NCBI GenBank assembly: GCA_015039315.1
Contig: WIDE01000026.1
Span: forward strand, 359,574 to 423,573
Length of the DNA: 64,000 nt
Origin: Clavulina sp. PMI_390
Taxonomy: Eukaryota; Basidiomycota; Agaricomycetes; Cantharellales; Hydnaceae
Direction of reading: 5' to 3'
Below, piece after piece: positions 53,842-63,598 of the stretch. The translations under genes and the position numbers were made by a program. The first letter of the stretch is position 1. Every line of letters begins with the position of its first letter. Under the pieces are notes generated by a model. That model made no database searches, had not been told where the DNA came from, and saw only the letters and a program-made list of their open reading frames with translations.

Positions 53842-55114
53842 TCAAGTCGTCGTCTTAGTCAGTCCTGCAGCGGTGCCTCCATAAGCTTGCGGAAGTTCGG
53901 CTGCATCAACATAGGGGAGGAGCTGCTTTCCGATCACTTGGGGACCTGATCCGACGACATGGAGTTTCGCGAAAGTCTTGGACGGCACGATGGGCTTGAA
54001 CAGCCAGTAGATCCAAGTGAGGAATGTCGGAACATTGACGAAAAACTTGACGTGCTAGAGATAGGAATGAGGATTGTTGTCAACCCGCCGACATATCTAT
54101 GCAATAATAAACTGATCCACGTACCAGGCATTCAGGGTAGTGTTCGCCAAAGATGCGAGTAGCTTCAGCTGCTGCCTTCTTGCTCTGCTCTGTCCTCGAG
54201 CTCGAGCTCACTCCAGCGTAATCATGCACCTAAACGGAGGATTATCATTCTGACGGGCTGTGGTCATCACTGGTAACGAACCTGGACGGTCGAGTCGGCC
54301 TTCTCGAAGTCCAATTGACGCATAGCTCGCTCCATCAGCTGAACACGCCATCTACGAAGAATAGGGGTATGGAGTCAGTTTTGACACCAACGAGCAATAC
54401 TCAAGTGGCGTACCTGAGGAATCGCTCGAGGTCCTTGAACACCTCCTCAAGCTTGACGTCGCCTCCATATACGTTGTACCTTTGGTAGGGAAGAAGAGGA
54501 GAGGGCTTCATGAAAGGCGACACAGGTTTTAACTTCCGAGGACGACGTACGTGAGTGGACGGCCTTCCTTATCTCTGCCAAAGATATACCCTATGTTCCC
54601 AAAGATGTCTTCTGGGAAGGTCTCGGTCAGGAGTCCCTCAATGTTAAATTCTTCGCGCCACTTGAGGGTGGCAATGAGCCGTTCTGTAGCTTTCTGTACA
54701 TTCAGATCGCTTAATCAAAGTTGTTTGGACCATATTAGTAACATAAAAGGTTTGGAGCGGCCCAAGACTCACGTCGCACGAACGAATTTGGCTAAAACGA
54801 CGGACACACGAGCATCGTCCACACGCCCAGGGTCAATCTTGACTCCCCACAAATCGACGACACGGAATCGTGCATCAGGGTTGTTCGGGAAGGCTTCCTC
54901 GAAGATCAGAGGCAGGGCTGTCTACAAGTTGTGCATGCCAAGGTCAAGTTGTTTAGCCCCTGCAAGACGTCACTGATAAAACAAAGCACATGTGTGTACA
55001 CACCCTAAGCTCCTTTACGGCGGCCCACTCTTTCTCAGTAAACTTCTGAGTCAGGGCATTCTGGGGTTCCGGCTCCACTGCAGGGGTCGGGGCGGGTGCT
55101 TCCTCTGCTGACAT
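53842..55114 (-). CDS. SFH5: Sec14-like phosphatidylinositol transfer protein SFH5 (290 aa)
   Basis: Exons (minus): 55114-55004, 54921-54773, 54709-54551, 54479-54414, 54351-54282, 54229-54125, 54054-53842; 873 nt, in frame. A CRAL-TRIO-N helix region (AKFVRATDLNVQKATERLI, then LKWREEF) is followed by the CRAL-TRIO lipid-binding fold (GRPLTYNVYGGDV, VHDYAGVS, FFVNVPTFLTWIYWLFKPI, LPQAYGGTA). Length and motifs agree with Sfh5, about 290 residues in yeast, which acts at the ER/plasma membrane and binds phosphatidylinositol or haem. The N-terminal 25 residues are Pro/Ala/Glu-rich and disordered. The stop is TGA at 53844-53842. It lies downstream of PUS1 on the same strand with a 228-base gap; each gene probably has its own promoter. 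Confidence 0.87.
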
Positions 55115-55342
55115 GGTGGTGGTAACGTTGAGGATCTTGGTGTGTGTGACGCGGACGGACGGCCGCAGCGGTCTGCCGTTTTGCGCCGATCTGATAAACA
55201 CCCGGCAATCTCCTAACGTACCATATTTGGTTATGATCCACACACTTATCAGTGCCAACTTGTGAGGGTTCAGACGAGCCTTGGTACAACACAAGTAATA
55301 CAAGTGGACATGACAGATACTTCACATCTACAATTCTCCAGC

Positions 55343-57727
55343 TCAGCCTTCAAGCTCATCCATTTTTGTCCTTGCCATCGAGGTCTCTGGTTCGTCTTCC
55401 ACAGCTTCAGCAAATGTATCACCTTTTCCTTTCTTCATAACTGCCGACGCAGGGATAGTGCCCTCTGCATTCAAGTAGTCGAAGTCCGAACCAGCATACC
55501 GATCCACTGATGTGATCCACTGGGAGAAGCTATATTGTCACAAGGTCATCAGCCTCAACCACGTAAATAGGCACCAAGTACGGCAGCACTCACACATGGT
55601 TAGAGGCCTCTTCTGCTCGCATGGCAGCATAGATGTGGTCTCGCTTGAAGACTTCGATCGTTTCACGGTGTGGCTCAAAGTCGATAGGCTCCTTGATGGT
55701 CGCTCCGCCTATCCCGGCAACATCGTTCACATTTGTTGATGGCTTTTTCCCTGCGCCTTCGGCTTCTGACTGTGCGTCGTCAATATCGATGGCCACTGGC
55801 GCTTCTGACAGCTGTTTCTGAATCTGAGCGTTTGACTGTTCTGTCTTCATGTTGTACGAGCTGAACCGTGGTTGCTCTAGCAAGAGTCCGAGTGCGGGTG
55901 CTCGAGGAATATGGATTCTACTCGGTCCGAACGTCTGAATCCAGGTTTACCGTAGTCGGTGACGGGAAGTATATGGAACAGGGCCGTAGCACGCACCTCC
56001 GGGATTAGTGTTGCAGGCGTCGACGTACGAGCAACGAGCATGACCATCCCGATCATTTTCCTCTAGCAGAGCAGAGCTGTTAGTATAACATACACGTGGT
56101 GGTACGGGCTAGCCTCACGATCTACGACCATATGATCAGAATCGAACGACCGAATCTTTATGACGATATTGGACTACCTGATGCAACATGAAGCTCTGGC
56201 CATGGAACTGAACGCTAACCCATTCAAAATCCCCTTCGACTCGAGGTTCTCGCACCTAGCAATAGCCATTAGGAAGGGGTGTGAATGTGAGGAATCGAGC
56301 AAGAGAAAATGACCACATACCTCCAACTTGATCATGTACCTCGCAGCGGCCTTGTCCGAGAATGGCCTTCCAACAGTATAGTTATGGAAGTTGTGTGTCC
56401 CCTCGAATTGTTTGAGAACCTCCTGAAATCGGGCTAACTGGTCCGGTGTCGCTCGGAATTTTTTGTGAAGCTCATCCAACTCTTCTATTGAGGGTTCCGA
56501 AGTAGGGGTATCGGGATCTGATGTGGCTGAGGAACGGGCGAGCCGGGCCCCTAGTTGCGAGGCCGGGTGTGGAGGCATGAGGATGTATGATGGAAAGAGA
56601 TATTCGTATATGCGGCTATCACATGTGCTGGGCATCGCAGGCCGTTTGTTCTCAGTAAGCGAAGGGCCTCCACGAGCAAATGAAGTTTGCGAAGCGAGAA
56701 TAACTCACGTCCTTGCACTAGATAACGAGGAAACACGATTAGCGCGCTGAGTACGACTGCTGCTGCGGGGGGAATACACAAAGCTGAATACGAACTTGAA
56801 GTTATTGGTCGTCCGAAGGATTTGCCAGACTCGAATTTGCGGGGGCAGAAAGGAGTTGACATGATCTACAAGACTGATGCCCGCTGAATGTAGCTCCGGT
56901 ATCTCGTTGATTAGCTTGAGAGATACGATGTTGCCTGCTGCGTGCACACCAGCATCAGTCCTCGCTGCCCGTCCTAACGAGACCTGTGAAGCCATATTCA
57001 GCATCACAAGAAACATAAATACTTGATCTATACCTTGGTAGGATCATCGGAATTGTCGGAACTGACAGCTCCGGCCTTGACAAGGGCGTCAAAAAGATCG
57101 CCCTCGATAGTTTTCGTGTCCTTTTGAGTTGCTTGACTGGGGGTATACGACAATGGCATGCGAGATAGAAGAGAATTATTTTCTTCAGTTTCGATTCCTT
57201 AGCATGGTTCAAACTTGGAGTGGATCGGTGTCGAGCGTATAAACTCACAACTGCATGCCACTGTAGCCTGTCCCGCAAAATCCGACCAGAACAGCACATT
57301 TCCTTTTTGGAAGCCGTTCCTTCTTATCATCCCCCTCATCTTCATTGCCTTCCCCTTTGTCTCTTTTCGATGTCCAATCCGCTGTTTCTCTTCCTCGAGC
57401 TCGTTTGCCTCTGCGATCGACCTTTCCAGGAGCAGGAGGATCGGACTTTGCGTTACGTTTCCCTCTCTTCGGCTTCGATGTGCCTGAAGGGGCAGAAGAC
57501 TGAGCAGGCAGAGAACTCGATTCTGGCGCGGCATCCATTGCAGAATCTTCGGCAACGTCGTGGGCATCTTTTACCAATGACTCGGCAGAAGCAGGAGTTT
57601 CAGACGGCTGTTGGGAGATTACGCCGTCCTCATTTACCGATCCAGAGGTTTTAGCCCGTTTAGAATCGGGAAGAGACACATTTTCGGTAGCAACAGAATC
57701 AGACTCGGGCTCTGGGCGTTTGCTCAT
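55343..57727 (-). CDS. PUS1: tRNA pseudouridine synthase 1 (TruA/Pus1 family)
   Basis: Modifies uridines in tRNA and other RNAs in the nucleus. The basic, Lys/Arg-rich N-terminus ([19 protein letters not shown]) is a likely NLS. Catalytic region: [41 protein letters not shown] (catalytic Asp), [29 protein letters not shown], then [30 protein letters not shown] and [15 protein letters not shown]. Two microexons are required: 9 nt at 56717-56709 (completes FNART) and 3 nt at 56121-56119 (the Ile of HQIRKM). The C-terminal region after the enzyme core is long and disordered. Start at 57727 (MSKRPEPES) because upstream codons in frame look like 5' UTR. The last exon ends KMDELEG with TGA at 55345-55343. 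Confidence 0.92.
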
Positions 57728-57841
57728 GAGAGGGGATTTTTGAATTGGGGTTGCAAAAATGAGACAACCGTGAGAATATGCTTCAACAACAACAACACAA
57801 CGATGGGCGCTCAGTGCGCGAAATCCTCCCCAGCGATCCAA

Positions 57842-58057
57842 CTAGAGGACATAAGATACTGCCTGCTTCCCCAGGAGATATACACCATAGCAGAAGATGC
57901 CCAATAGAATAGTCAATCCTGCTGTCTTCAACGCTGTGTCCTCAATCCCCATCTCTTCTGGGGTCTCGTGGTGGTCGTGGTCGTGCTTGTGGACGCGCCT
58001 CCGCATCTGAGCAGGAAGCTCTTCAACGGCAGGGCTCGAACTTTGTGCTTGTGACAT
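57842..58057 (-). CDS. Small tail-anchored membrane protein (71 aa)
   Basis: Intact short frame: MSQAQSSSPAVEELPAQM, a His/Asp-rich patch (HKHDHDHHE), a conserved-looking ETPEEMGIEDTALK, then one transmembrane helix near the C-terminus (AGLTILLGIFCYGVYLLG) and a short tail. Topology suggests a tail-anchored or single-span protein of ER or mitochondria. The His-rich patch might bind metal. I do not recognise the family. Its stop lies about 115 bases upstream of the PUS1 start on the same strand. Confidence 0.6.
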   Translation of the reverse strand: MSQAQSSSPAVEELPAQMRRRVHKHDHDHHETPEEMGIEDTALKTAGLTILLGIFCYGVYLLGKQAVSYVL

Positions 58058-58605
58058 TGCTAGTTGATAATACTGCGTAAAGAGATGGTTCGGTCAGCAC
58101 TCCTCGTCCTTTGGGGGTAGTGGCCAGCGACCAAATGCTCCCTACCAATCTACACACAGGCTCTCTATGCACACACAAACATACAACGGTCGACCTATCA
58201 TCAGTGCTACGTCCATGCTACCATAGGATTGCTAAAAACTTACTAGGAAATGCAGCAGGACTGGTTGGGTTCTCTCGACGGCGTGGGAGAGTTTGCTGTT
58301 GACATAACCCATTGAATTTCAATCTATGTCACGATTCAGGATTCATCAAAGGGAGCGTCATTCATCGAACGCTTGCTCAGGTTTCAGTCCTATACAACCG
58401 TCGCGATACTATGGCTATATGCTTATCAGTCGCCTTCTAAGAACGAAAGCGGAATACCCCCATGACCCGGTAACCGATGCCCCTCCCCCATGGGGGTGAA
58501 GAGTCCCCGCACAATACTATCAATACGACCACCTGACTCGGGATTTGGCTACGACTCGGATATATAAAGGGTCCTTCTGGCCAGTCTGGATCACGGCATC
58601 ACACT
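58058..58605. promoter_or_regulatory. Divergent promoter region; ALDH side with TATA and C-rich repeats
   Basis: Between the small membrane protein (-) and the aldehyde dehydrogenase (+). On the ALDH side: CCCCCATG at 58457-58464 and again at 58485-58492, the second within the 12-base palindrome CCCCCATGGGGG (58485-58496); TATATAAA at 58561-58568, 45 bases before the ATG. CCCCT-like cores are bound by stress or carbon-control zinc-finger factors in fungi. Confidence 0.55.
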
Positions 58606-60593
58606 ATGACCTCCCCATCTCTCCTCAGCATCGATCAATCGAGCCCATTCCCCTGCTACGTTGGAGGGGAATTTTTCGCTACTCCCACTACCTTTTCTGT
58701 CTACAACGCGCATGACAAGACCAAAGTCTGGCGCGAAATTCATGGCGTAGGCCCCAAAGAGGCTGCGGATGCTGTCAACGCGGCTGCTGCTGCCCTTCCA
58801 GGTAACGTTAGCTTCATGCAAAAACTCATTACCCGATGACCTTTCAACTAAATCATGATCTATAGCTTGGCGAGACACAATGGTGCAAGCCAGGAGGGCC
58901 ATATTGCTCAAGGCAGCTGCAATCGTTCGTGATCGCAGTGAGGAATTCATCAAAATCCAGGTACAAGAGACGACGACTTCGCGGGCGATGGCGGGCCTGA
59001 ACGTCATGCTCACAGTATCCTGGTATGTACGAGCCCCGAGTATCCTTGATTTGAATATGCATCGCTAAATAGAACGACTGTCGGGCGGTCAATTCTCACA
59101 GTCTCGAAGAGCTTGCCGCCGCAGCGAGCCAAGCCCTTGCTGGACAAGTGGTGCAATGCGACTTCCCTGGTCAGACCGCCCAGCTTCTCCGTGAACCGTA
59201 TGGAGTTGTTCTCGGTATCACGCCCTGGAACGCTCCGTTGATTCTTGCCGCTCGAGCTGCAGCGAATCCTATCATTGCTGGTAACACGGTTGTGTTGAAA
59301 ACGAGCGAACTCAGCCCCGTCAGCAACTCGATCATTGCCCAGGTGTTCGCAGAAGCAGGGTTGCCCAAAGGCGTATTGAATGTCATTCATGCCTCGGTTG
59401 CCGATACTCCCAAGGTGAGACCGTGTCCCTGATGCCGCTCCGCTTAACGTTCACTCTTCGGCCACACTGACGCTGCCCGGAATAAGGTTGTCGAGTCTAT
59501 CATTGCGAACCCTATCGTCCGAAAAGTGAATTTCACGGGCTCCACCCGTGTGGGTTCCATCATTGGCGAGCTCTGTGGGCGCTACATCAAGCCGTCTGTC
59601 CTGGAATTAGGCGGTGCTGCGGTTGTCATTGTCCTTGAGGATGCTGATCTTGAGGGTGCCGCCAAGAATGCTGTGTATGGCAGTTTCCTTCACAGTGGCC
59701 AAATTTGTATGAGCACGAATAACGTTCTCGGTGAGTGGCCCCCGAGGATCGATGTCATGCATCTATCCCGATATTACCGCCGATCACTTACGCCGTTTCT
59801 GTAGTTCATGACGCGATTGCGGACGAGTTCATCAAGGTTGTGCAGAAAGAAATGGCCAAGGTTCAAGCTGGACCCAGCGAGAATCCCGAAGATAATCTCC
59901 TTCGTGGCGTTTTCACTACGTCTCATGCATCTCGCATGGGTGACCTAGTCAAGGATGCTGTGAGCAAGGGTGCTAAGGTGGTCGTTGGTGACGCTGCAGC
60001 GACGAGCCAGCTCCCTGCTGGTTCCAATGTTGTGCAGCCAGTGGTCCTTGACGGTCTCACCGACGAGATGAGTACGTTCATCTCACCGACTATCCCATCA
60101 AGTGTGTGTGCTAAACACGCTTTGTTGTTTAGATATCAGCTCTGAGGAAATCTTTGGTCCTCTTATGGGCATTATTCGGTTCAAGACCGACGCAGAAGCT
60201 GTTCAACTAGCCAACAAGCTCGAGTATGGCCTGAGTGGTGCCGTACACGGTCGTGATCTGCTGCGAGCCACCAAGGTCGCGAGGCAGTTGGAGATCAACC
60301 TCGTTCACATCAACACCTTCACTTTACACGATAATGCTGTAAGGCTTCCAGTGTTCACCATCGTCCTATGTTCCACGCTGATCTTACCATATTGTTTGTA
60401 GATGATCCCTCATGGTGGATGGAAAAAGAGTGGGTATGGGCGCTTCAACGGCTTTGAGGGTATCAGAGAGTTTACGCAAACCAAGGTTAGTCGCTAAAGC
60501 GATCATGTACTTCCTATGATTTGCTCATCTGCTCGTTCACAGTGTATATCTTTCGTTGACCAAAGCATTGCTCCCCCAATTCCCGCCCTCTGA
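58606..60593 (+). CDS. NAD(P)+-dependent aldehyde dehydrogenase (505 aa)
   Basis: Exons: 58606-58801, 58866-59022, 59102-59414, 59487-59730, 59805-60071, 60133-60338, 60402-60485, 60543-60593; 1518 nt, in frame. Family motifs: VLGITPWNAPLILAARAAAN (cofactor loop), VVLKTSELSP, VNFTGSTRVGSIIGE, the LELGGAA glutamate and the nucleophile Cys in HSGQICMSTN, EEIFGPLMGIIRF, and GGWKKSGYGRFNG near the end. The full length is typical of an ALDH superfamily subunit. The pattern resembles fungal salicylaldehyde/vanillin-type enzymes, but substrate assignment is uncertain. Cytosolic (no signal peptide). Oxidises aldehydes to acids. The PABA synthase gene follows on the same strand. Confidence 0.93.
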
Positions 60594-61079
60594 GCAACAA
60601 TCGATACCGTTAGCCAACTTCATGGCGTCTGTCTACTTTTTTAGGTGACTGTACCATCTAGTCTGTACTTTGTAGCAAAAAAAGTATGTCATGTCGAATA
60701 GTCACAATCTGGGACTGCACCGACTCAAACTGACCGAGGAGCGCGTGAAAAGCCGCCGGGCGATCCGAGATTAAATGTCACGTGGCTGTCGAGACGTCCC
60801 ATAAATTTCGTGGCCAGCATCCACTTTTGTCGTTTTGTTACACTTTCAGTGAATATCCGAGGAATATCGTATTCGGTAAAATAATTGATCAAACCCCTCT
60901 GTGACCCTTTGCGTTACTCGGTCGCACAGATCCTCTCCCCGTCGTCGTCTCACTTTTTTTGGGCCACCAGCTGTGAGTCATCTCCAGAAGCCAACTACGA
61001 TCTGATGCGTGTGGCGATGAGAAATATTAATTTAGCCCCCCCGTAGATATTTTCTTGGGACTCTAGTGTCTTTGATCGC
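60594..61079. promoter_or_regulatory. Intergenic region with CACGTG upstream of PABA synthase
   Basis: 486 bases. CACGTG at 60779-60784 (context TGTCACGTGGC) lies about 300 bases upstream of the PABA synthase ATG. No gene seen. Confidence 0.45.
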
Positions 61080-63598
61080 ATGCCGAATATCCTTCTAATC
61101 GACTCGTACGATTCCTTTACATTCAAGTTCGTACCATTGCTATCCCGCTGGCCAACAAAACTTTCATCTTAACTATGCTGTCCGTTAGTCTCGCAGATTT
61201 AATTCGTACCTCAATACCCTTAGCTGACGTTCACATTATCCACAACGACTCGCTTTCCCCGCCCCACCTCCTATCCCTGCTTCCCTCATTCGATGCAGTC
61301 GTAGTTGGTCCAGGTCCCGGATCTCCCGATGATCCAGAGTCCGTAGGAATCATCCCAACGCTTTGGAGCCTATCTGATGACCAACTCGTCCCCGTCTTTG
61401 GCGTTTGTCTTGGCCACCAGTCTTTGTGTCTCGCATTTGGCGGGTCCTTGCGCAGGCTTCGTGACGTGAAGCACGGACTCAAATCACTCCTCGAATACAA
61501 TAGCGCTGATATCTTCAAGGGCGCACAAGACCCTGATGTCGTCCGCTATCACTCTCTTCATGTTGATATCGCTGCATGCTCCGATTTGACGCCCCTAGCG
61601 TGGGCTCTCGATGAGCACGACGACTCGTCCACAACTCATGTGCTTATGGCCGCCAAACATCTCGAAAAACCATTCTGGGGGGTTCAATACCACCCAGAGT
61701 CGGTTTGCACATCAGAAGGGGGTGCCCAAGTTCTCAAGAATTTCTGGACCCTAGCTTCCCAATGGAACCAGGAACACAATCGGGTCTCGCTTCCTTCACT
61801 GCCGCTTGATTGGAAGGATCACTTGACTCCATCCTCTCGTGCCCTCCATCCCTTGCCACTTGTCCCTCGCTCCGCATTCGCATCTCCTTCTGCATCCGTC
61901 CACTATACCAAAATCATCCCAAATGACCGTCTTGACAGGTCTATTGTTCCTCGGCTATGTGAAACATTGCGAGGCTCAAATAATATTTCTGCTCAAGACG
62001 ACTTTGTGGTTCTCGACTCTAGCGCTTCGCCAGGCCGCTACTCCATCATTGGGCTCATCATGCCTGATACCAGTCGTTTTGAGTATACAATGGGTGATGC
62101 ATTTATCTCTGAGAGGACAGCATCTACTTCCTCACGTGCTATATTCCAAGATGGCGATGATGTTTGGCAATGGCTGGCAAGATATATGGATACAAGGAAA
62201 TGCTCCAATGGCTCACCGGACTCACCCTTCTGGGGCGGTCTCCTCGGGATCGCGAACTATGAGGCTGGCGTCACAAGCTTGGACATCCCCCTCCCCAGTC
62301 GACCTCAAAGCCGGTACCGACCAGACATATCGTTTGCCTTTATCGAGCGCAGCATCGTACTGGATTTCTCCAGTGGTAGCGTCTACGTTCAATCGATCGG
62401 TTTAGAACAAGCCGTCGAGACCACGTGGATAACCAGCACTGCTGCCTTGCTCAAAAGAATCATTGACCCTGCTTTTACCCCGGCTCCTACCCCTCCTATC
62501 AGCCCTGACCTTGACTCTACCCACCGAGCTCCTCCAGCCCCACCGCGGTCTCACATCAAGGTTGAGATGCCTTCGGAGGATCGCTATATCTCTGGGATAC
62601 TCCAAGCTCAGGAGTTCCTCAAGGCGGGCGATTCCTATGAAATCTGTCTCACCGCTCTCACTCGCATTACCCTTCAACCAAACATTTCTGGGCCTTCTGT
62701 CTCCCCTGTCTCACATGAATACCTCCCATTGCGCTTGTTCAAGGTTCTTCGCGTCCTCAATCCAGCAGCTCACGGCTCGTACATGCGATTGGGAGGGATT
62801 ACGCTCGTAGGCTCGTCCCCAGAACGATTTGTTTCTTGGACTAGAGGCGGCCTTTGTCAATTACGGCCTATCAAAGGCACGATCAAGAAGTCTCGTCCCG
62901 GTCAACCGGACGTCACCCGGGCGGAGGCGGAGGAGTTTTTGTTAGGATCTCCGAAGGAGATTGCTGAGAATCTCATGATTGTCGACCTCATTCGACACGA
63001 TTTGCATCGCGTCGTCTCTGCACATGCTATTCAAGACACGCTCACACCTCCGCCGGCGAATGCTACGAGACGCAGCGTGGAAGTGACAAAACTTTTTGCG
63101 GTTGAGGAGACCGAAACAGTCTTTCACCTCGTCACTGTTATCGAGGGCTGCGTTGATGTTGCGCAAGGTTATACAGGCTGGGACGTTCTTTCGCGCAGTT
63201 TGCCTCCAGGTAAGGTTCCGCTTTCATGATGATTTTATAGTGTTGTTGATTTGGATTATTCGTGATCTCTAGGCAGCATGACGGGAGCACCGAAGAAACG
63301 CTCTGTCGAACTTCTCCAGGAACTCGAATTCTCCCCAGGACCTACACCGTCCTCGACTCCCCATGAGCGCGGGGTCTACTCTGGTGTCTGTGGATATTGG
63401 TGTGTTGGTGGTGGAGGTGACTTTAGCGTCATCATTCGCTCCACTTTTCGATATGATGACGAACTGGGAGATGATGGGACTGAGACATGGTATGTTGGAG
63501 CAGGTGGGGCTATAACAGCACTCTCGAACCCAAACGACGAGTGGGATGAGATGAAGACTAAGCTATCAAGCGCGCTGCGGGCATTCTCGCATGTGTGA
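61080..63598 (+). CDS. ABZ1: Bifunctional para-aminobenzoate synthase (PabA-PabB fusion, 797 aa)
   Basis: Aminodeoxychorismate synthase of the folate pathway: chorismate + glutamine to 4-amino-4-deoxychorismate. Exons 61080-61126, 61189-63209, 63273-63598; 2394 nt, in frame. N-terminal class I glutamine amidotransferase: NILLIDSYDSFTFN, VVVGPGPGSP, GVCLGHQ (catalytic Cys), WGVQYHPES (His, Glu). C-terminal chorismate-binding domain: DRYISGILQAQEFLKAGDSY, RPIKGTIKKSRP (Lys of PIKGT is typical of PABA rather than anthranilate synthase), EIAENLMIVDLIRHDL and GSMTGAPKKRSVELLQEL. The fusion of both subunits is normal in fungi. The tiny first exon (47 nt) carries only the MPNILLIDSYDSFTF start. The lyase Abz2 is not in this window. 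Confidence 0.95.

Follow-up and report, generated by a model that had tools for sequence, protein, structure and literature searches.

A very probable one-codon exon in PUS1 of Clavulina, likely ancestral to the Agaricomycetes and often missed by gene prediction

Among described exons, the 1-nt exon of the Fusarium P450 gene CYP621A (PMC12940212) resembles the one considered here in being fungal, ultra-small and situated inside a conserved motif. Exons of 3 nt that supply one codon, as in PUS1, have been reported for Drosophila homothorax (PMC7392893) and for TnT and Ncam (PMC8042270). In plants, small micro-exons of 1-15 nt are described as conserved, mostly included (PSI above 0.5) and pervasively misannotated (PMC8831610), as the PUS1 exon also appears to be, and the P450 genes of Phanerochaete chrysosporium, likewise an Agaricomycete, combine tiny exons with introns of 45-55 bp (PMC1184071). 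Here we consider PUS1 of Clavulina sp. PMI_390, in a window of 64,000 nucleotides (the whole stretch of DNA that was analysed; contig WIDE01000026.1, positions 359,574 to 423,573). A single codon in this gene, ATC, is very probably a real, constitutively included exon, one that is probably ancestral to the Agaricomycetes and is often missed by gene predictors.

By its predicted protein, the gene is identified as that of a Pus1/TruA pseudouridine synthase. The model comprises 10 exons and 9 introns and encodes 586 aa, with an uncertain start ATG (the NCBI models begin at a later Met); its product matched Pfam PF01416 (PseudoU_synth_1) with an E of 3.4e-13 and the Pus1 chain 7r9f with an E of 2.6e-82, the similarity spanning both halves. 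RAARTDKGVHA of 7r9f aligned with the model protein, which carries the Asp of RAARTD, presumably the catalytic residue of Pus1/TruA; 7r9g has A there. HQIRKM in the model protein aligned without gaps with HQIRKM of both 7r9f and 9h51, which we take to be the yeast and human Pus1 structures. Elsewhere in the gene, exon 4 probably represents another micro-exon, one confined to part of the Cantharellales; it is flanked by introns of 78 and 81 nt, and its three residues are absent from both NCBI models (P0001 and P0002), Hydnum P0003 and Cantharellus P0004 and present in Rhizoctonia P0057 and Tulasnella P0064. The first intron (57248-57137, minus strand) measures 112 nt in the model, which is long for the Clavulina genome. 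A hidden micro-exon within it was considered and set aside, because the protein length there equals that of Hydnum (MQIQRDHSNTKTIEG; compared by eye) and no hidden codon is needed.

Table 1. Position of PUS1 in the window and of the exons and introns discussed in the text
Feature	Position in window	Strand	Basis
PUS1, tRNA pseudouridine synthase 1, TruA family	55343..57727	-	model, Pfam, Pus1 structure match and NCBI proteins P0001/P0002
Exon 4, 9 nt, TGCAAGGAC, part of FNARTTCDSR; probable second micro-exon	56709..56717	-	gene model and relatives
Exon 6, 78 nt, ends ...GQSFMLHQ	56178..56255	-	gene model and sequence reading
Intron 6, 56 nt, GTAGTC...CGTAG, CTGAT branch-point-like, weak donor (no G at +5)	56122..56177	-	sequence reading
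Exon 7 (very probable), 3 nt, ATC = Ile of HQIRKM	56119..56121	-	sequence, junction enumeration, relatives
Intron 7, 56 nt, GTGAGG...CTGCTAG, TACTAAC branch point	56063..56118	-	sequence reading
Exon 8, 66 nt, RKMIGMV...	55997..56062	-	gene model

CATCAG (HQ) closes the upstream exon at 56178, and AGGAAAATG (RKM) opens the downstream exon at 56062. An earlier note on this DNA had divided the gap between them into two introns separated by ATC, and its coordinates proved exact to the letter (Table 1), including the TACTAAC of intron 7, which ends 16 nt before the 3′ end of that intron; the CTGAT of intron 6 did not appear in that note. With a micro-exon taken as an internal exon of at most about 30 nt, the site presents 3 nt between two GT-AG introns of normal size for the organism, the 25th to 75th percentile being 55-69 nt in a rough strict set of local introns. 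Intron training used the window and 19 ten-kb pieces of the same contig, which yielded 581 candidates at a loose cut-off; this loose set is contaminated (three were kept in the PUS1 region, two of them wrong), and the strict subset of 134 introns is a rough yardstick whose selection favours short introns and disfavours long ones. The GTAGTC donor of intron 6 is atypical, with AGT at +3 to +5 in none of the 134 rough strict introns, and scores just below the 25th percentile of the loose set. The last acceptor, which is common to the models that include the exon, skip it or insert Val, is middling (3.2, between the 10th and 25th percentile). When the interior of the gap was dinucleotide-shuffled 100,000 times with the donor hexamer and final TAG held fixed, AG-ATH-GT with at least 44 nt on each side arose in 1,040 shuffles, but in only 15 when both halves also had to contain a CTRAY branch point.

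The possible junctions between the HQ and RKM exons were enumerated with donors restricted to GT or GC, acceptors to AG and introns to 40 nt or more, allowing zero or one internal exon of at most 30 nt; for the two-intron cases, inserted stretches were listed up to a length of two residues. Only the ATC exon inserts exactly Ile among the enumerated combinations. The earlier note had named a different junction supplying the Ile codon as one finding that would overturn its reading, and none that supplies this residue alone emerged. The splice from 56174 to 56063, which inserts Val, had been overlooked in that note. Single-residue rivals are this Val form (a 112-nt intron from 56174), a Pro form (CCC) and a Val form with an extra downstream GC intron; the remaining outcomes are the deletion (56177 to 56063), further forms with an extra GC intron, the two-residue insertions IV, VI and VP, and longer insertions. 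The Pro exon (CCC, 56108-56106) was rejected, as its second intron would be just 43 nt. By eye, upstream extension of the RKM exon is blocked by an in-frame TAG immediately before AGG. If either intron is retained, the 14th codon past HQ is a stop, and skipping of the ATC preserves the frame and deletes the Ile, as previously noted.

The proteins of relatives are stronger evidence for a 3-nt exon than the anatomy of the site. The sample was drawn from three protein searches, the best 120 matches of 3,248, 2,593 and 2,377, respectively, which overlap and comprise 194 distinct proteins; all were classified, and we assume that organism names, or the nearest relative for nameless entries, divide them correctly into Agaricomycetes and others. 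The Ile was present in all 28 non-Agaricomycete proteins (24 genomic, 1 jgi and 3 lgn). Among the 156 sampled genome-annotated Agaricomycete proteins, in contrast, 101 read HQ-RKM, 21 HQI (including P0039, which is tagged both ncbi and lgn and was counted as genomic) and 11 HQV, with 18 showing other junction strings and five lacking the motif. In an alignment of the 194 proteins and the model, the Ile column was gapped in 108 of these 156, compared with a median of 2 of 156 over 286 core columns and with 69 in the next worst core column, which lies in a stretch of variable length; the columns adjoining the Ile, from HGQSF through the nine residues after it, had at most 6 gaps each.

The 101 proteins without the Ile cover eleven orders (one member per order was looked up): Cantharellales, Auriculariales, Gomphales, Geastrales, Sistotremastrales, Hymenochaetales, Gloeophyllales, Russulales, Boletales, Agaricales and Polyporales. 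Within the sampled Cantharellales, the residue is missing from one of the two Clavulina models, from Hydnum, Cantharellus and Tulasnella and from four Rhizoctonia proteins; one Rhizoctonia and one Ceratobasidium entry appear to read through a splice site, and the five motifless proteins also belong to these two genera. Models with and without the Ile are intermixed inside genera (Suillus, Mycena and Coprinopsis), which points to gene-model error rather than biology: Suillus placidus (HQI) and S. plorans (HQ-) are 93% identical, and Coprinopsis cinerea (HQI) and C. marcescibilis (HQ-) 74%. Four of the 21 HQI proteins come from inky-cap relatives (Coprinopsis, Coprinellus, Ephemerocybe and Candolleomyces). 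Some Agaricomycete lineages may have lost one or both introns, and some of the 11 HQV proteins could have a real Val. A DNA search of viral contigs for related sequence gave no match.

Annotation also conflicts on identical DNA. The PUS1 locus is present twice in the assembly, and the second copy (L021, G000:C106), probably the uncollapsed second haplotype of a dikaryon, is identical from 55850 to at least 61152 (5,303 bp). Nevertheless, of the two deposited proteins, P0001 reads HQVRKM and P0002 HQ-RKM. As two different models were deposited on the same letters, at least one must be wrong; if the ATC exon is accepted, both are wrong at this junction. Together, the close relatives and the identical DNA annotated in both ways make gene-prediction error the best explanation of the records that lack the Ile. 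Over the whole range compared (53870-61152), the two copies have 149 mismatches in 7,285 aligned bases and are diverged below 55850. P0002 additionally omits 35 residues (105 nt; 55796-55692, minus strand) between SEAP and EPIDFE that P0001 and the present model keep, as if an extra intron had been called in one copy; the DNA of the copies differs there.

Several annotated proteins appear to retain traces of the splice sites. Eight have HQ-I-V followed by R, S or G: P0028 (Artomyces), P0062 (Cristinia), P0073 (Steccherinum), P0125 (Ceratobasidium), P0169 (Tephrocybe), P0174 (Panaeolus), P0185 (Sphagnurus) and P0192 (Mycena indigotica). Artomyces was looked up as Russulales, Cristinia as Agaricales and Steccherinum as Polyporales; Ceratobasidium we take to belong to the Cantharellales and the other four to the Agaricales. 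Since GTRNGY-like donors translate as V-R, V-S or V-G, these eight models seem to run from the Ile codon into the GT donor of the second intron directly after it. Similarly, P0043 (Rhizoctonia) reads HQ-V-S-Y, as if it continued into a donor directly after HQ. On the pattern of the relatives' proteins, we infer that AG-ATH-GT is present in their DNA between the HQ and RKM exons. In five Agaricales proteins (P0169, P0171, P0172, P0174 and P0185), the predictors seem to drop the RKM exon and to join HQ or HQIV to other residues.

All ten Agaricomycete proteins labelled lgn contain the Ile. Judging from contig size, these entries are probably transcript assemblies, because genomic contigs would not so regularly stop at gene ends: eight of the ten have longest contigs of 1,911-2,401 bases, which leave 168-733 bases outside the CDS, those of P0023 and P0042 being 5,377 and 3,928 bases. 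The argument is compelling only for P0097, whose 168 spare bases hardly leave room for the usual introns; for the others, size alone is no proof. A caller working on genomic DNA, however, would also need to find the 3-nt exon in order to produce these proteins, unless the introns were lost there. Seven of the ten have a nearest annotated relative without the Ile, at 88-90% identity in three cases (P0024 and Lactarius tabidus, 90%; P0023 and Pisolithus croceorrhizus, 89%; P0191 and Pleurotus eryngii, 88%) and at lower identity in the others (P0147 and Mycena latifolia, 81%, with Mycena at 81-84%; P0034 and Phanerochaete carnosa, 79%; P0111 and Lyophyllum, 74%, range 74-76%; P0097 and Coniferiporia, 66%). 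The nearest annotated relatives of P0042, P0051 and P0170 have the residue.

These data bear on three other readings of the site. A single 112-nt intron with its donor, GTCCAA, at 56174 would give HQVRKM and dispense with a micro-exon altogether. This is the junction of the deposited model P0001, its product resembles the 11 HQV records, Val is chemically close to Ile, and the first intron of the PUS1 model is also 112 nt; but the donor scores 2.42 compared with 3.92 for GTAGTC, C at +3 and A at +5 are each found in 9 of the 134 introns in the rough strict set, which disfavours long introns, and Val occurs in none of the 13 lgn proteins and none of the 25 other non-Agaricomycete proteins. Under it, the second donor would be there by chance, as would the ATC and the CTGAT branch point; we regard the Val reading as extremely unlikely. 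A true loss of the Ile in the Agaricomycetes, with HQRKM real and the ATC present by chance, would account for the 101 deposited proteins that read this way; yet such a loss should not alternate inside genera, and both the ten lgn proteins, some up to 90% identical to models without the residue, and the eight HQIV read-throughs speak against it, so that we find this reading barely credible.

The third reading accepts the exon and makes it a regulated cassette: under some conditions it would be skipped, leaving a Pus1 without the Ile whose activity would be changed or abolished. Skipping preserves the frame, the upstream donor is weak, and a glucose-regulated micro-exon has been reported in Trichoderma Xlr2 (PMC11121469). 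However, the Ile-less deposited proteins are scattered within genera in a way that fits annotation error, and no lgn protein of the 13 shows the skipped form, although this tests regulation only weakly because these entries are cluster representatives. We consider regulated skipping very unlikely, and the earlier suggestion that alternative splicing toggles the enzyme is not supported. Its central proposal, a 3-nt exon that restores the invariant Ile of HQIRKM, is well supported by the relatives' proteins. From the same proteins, we infer that the Clavulina PUS1 mRNA itself includes the ATC exon and that this inclusion is constitutive.

Short fungal introns are usually recognised across the intron (intron definition). 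If each short PUS1 intron is recognised as a unit in this way, no exon-spanning complex need form on a 3-nt exon; introns 6 and 7 could be spliced out sequentially, whichever came first, and the product would be a normal Pus1 enzyme with the HQIRKM helix intact. Given an invariant Ile, the arrangement would be kept, since failure of either splice event truncates the protein (retention) or deletes the residue (skipping). AlphaFold models of the normal protein P0111 and the Ile-less P0002, each run with 37 other rows, both have a 16-residue helix beginning at the motif: in P0111 it spans 371-386, with the Ile at 374, and in P0002 it spans 319-334 and begins at the motif Met rather than the Leu. 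The preceding block of ten had a mean pLDDT of 81 in P0002 against 90 in P0111, a contrast to which we give little weight because the block edges differ. The models fit the idea that deleting the Ile would shift the register of the residues before it in the helix, with which its strict conservation agrees.

Given the orders covered, the one-codon exon was probably present in the Agaricomycete ancestor and kept since. An exon in the common ancestor of the Cantharellales and the other orders would be about as old as the crown Agaricomycetes (~300 My), the median age of which is given as 299 Ma (351-252) (PMC6303338). It is very unlikely, though conceivable, that the exon was held class-wide over these ~300 million years as a built-in splicing check, such that functional Pus1 would be made only when two adjacent introns are removed without skipping. 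Pus1 modifies the spliceosomal U2 RNA in yeast, and the exon would then link the quality of splicing to an enzyme that tunes splicing. If the ATC is a constitutive exon, a single annotation error common to about two thirds (101/156) of the Agaricomycete PUS1 proteins sampled has removed an invariant residue from them, and the gene offers a ready benchmark for tools that find 3-nt exons. It would also be a natural, long-lived case for studying how the spliceosome copes with an exon below the size needed for exon definition and how exons of this kind originate and are maintained, with a wide choice of mushroom species for experiments.

Micro-exons as small as this are documented, with 1-nt exons (PMC12940212, PMC8831610) and 3-nt animal exons (PMC8042270, PMC7392893) on record, and the earlier description of the PUS1 exon as close to the smallest known is fair. 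In the literature covered, mostly papers outside subscription, no PUS1 micro-exon and no class-wide one-codon Agaricomycete exon was reported; in the text available from PMC4014442 and PMC3990503, the term micro-exon occurs only as an aligner option. The kind is thus known, and the PUS1 exon in mushrooms seems to be a new case. The plant micro-exons differ by kingdom, and the word 'fungi' is absent from the main text of PMC8831610. The shortest exon of the P. chrysosporium P450 genes is 6 bp, and those exons are spread over families as candidates for alternative splicing rather than being one conserved exon (PMC1184071). The 3-nt exons of homothorax (PMC7392893) and TnT (PMC8042270) are reported to be alternatively spliced, a behaviour of which the PUS1 proteins examined give no sign, and the Trichoderma Xlr2 micro-exon, although fungal, is 20 nt long, not a multiple of three, and glucose-regulated (PMC11121469). 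Like the PUS1 exon, that of CYP621A is needed to rebuild the protein and hard to annotate, and it is conserved among orthologs, as the PUS1 exon probably is; it differs in being 1 nt rather than a full codon, so that skipping it breaks the frame, and it is a Fusarium exon supported by RNA reads, whereas the PUS1 exon is known here from DNA and proteins and appears to be class-wide (PMC12940212).
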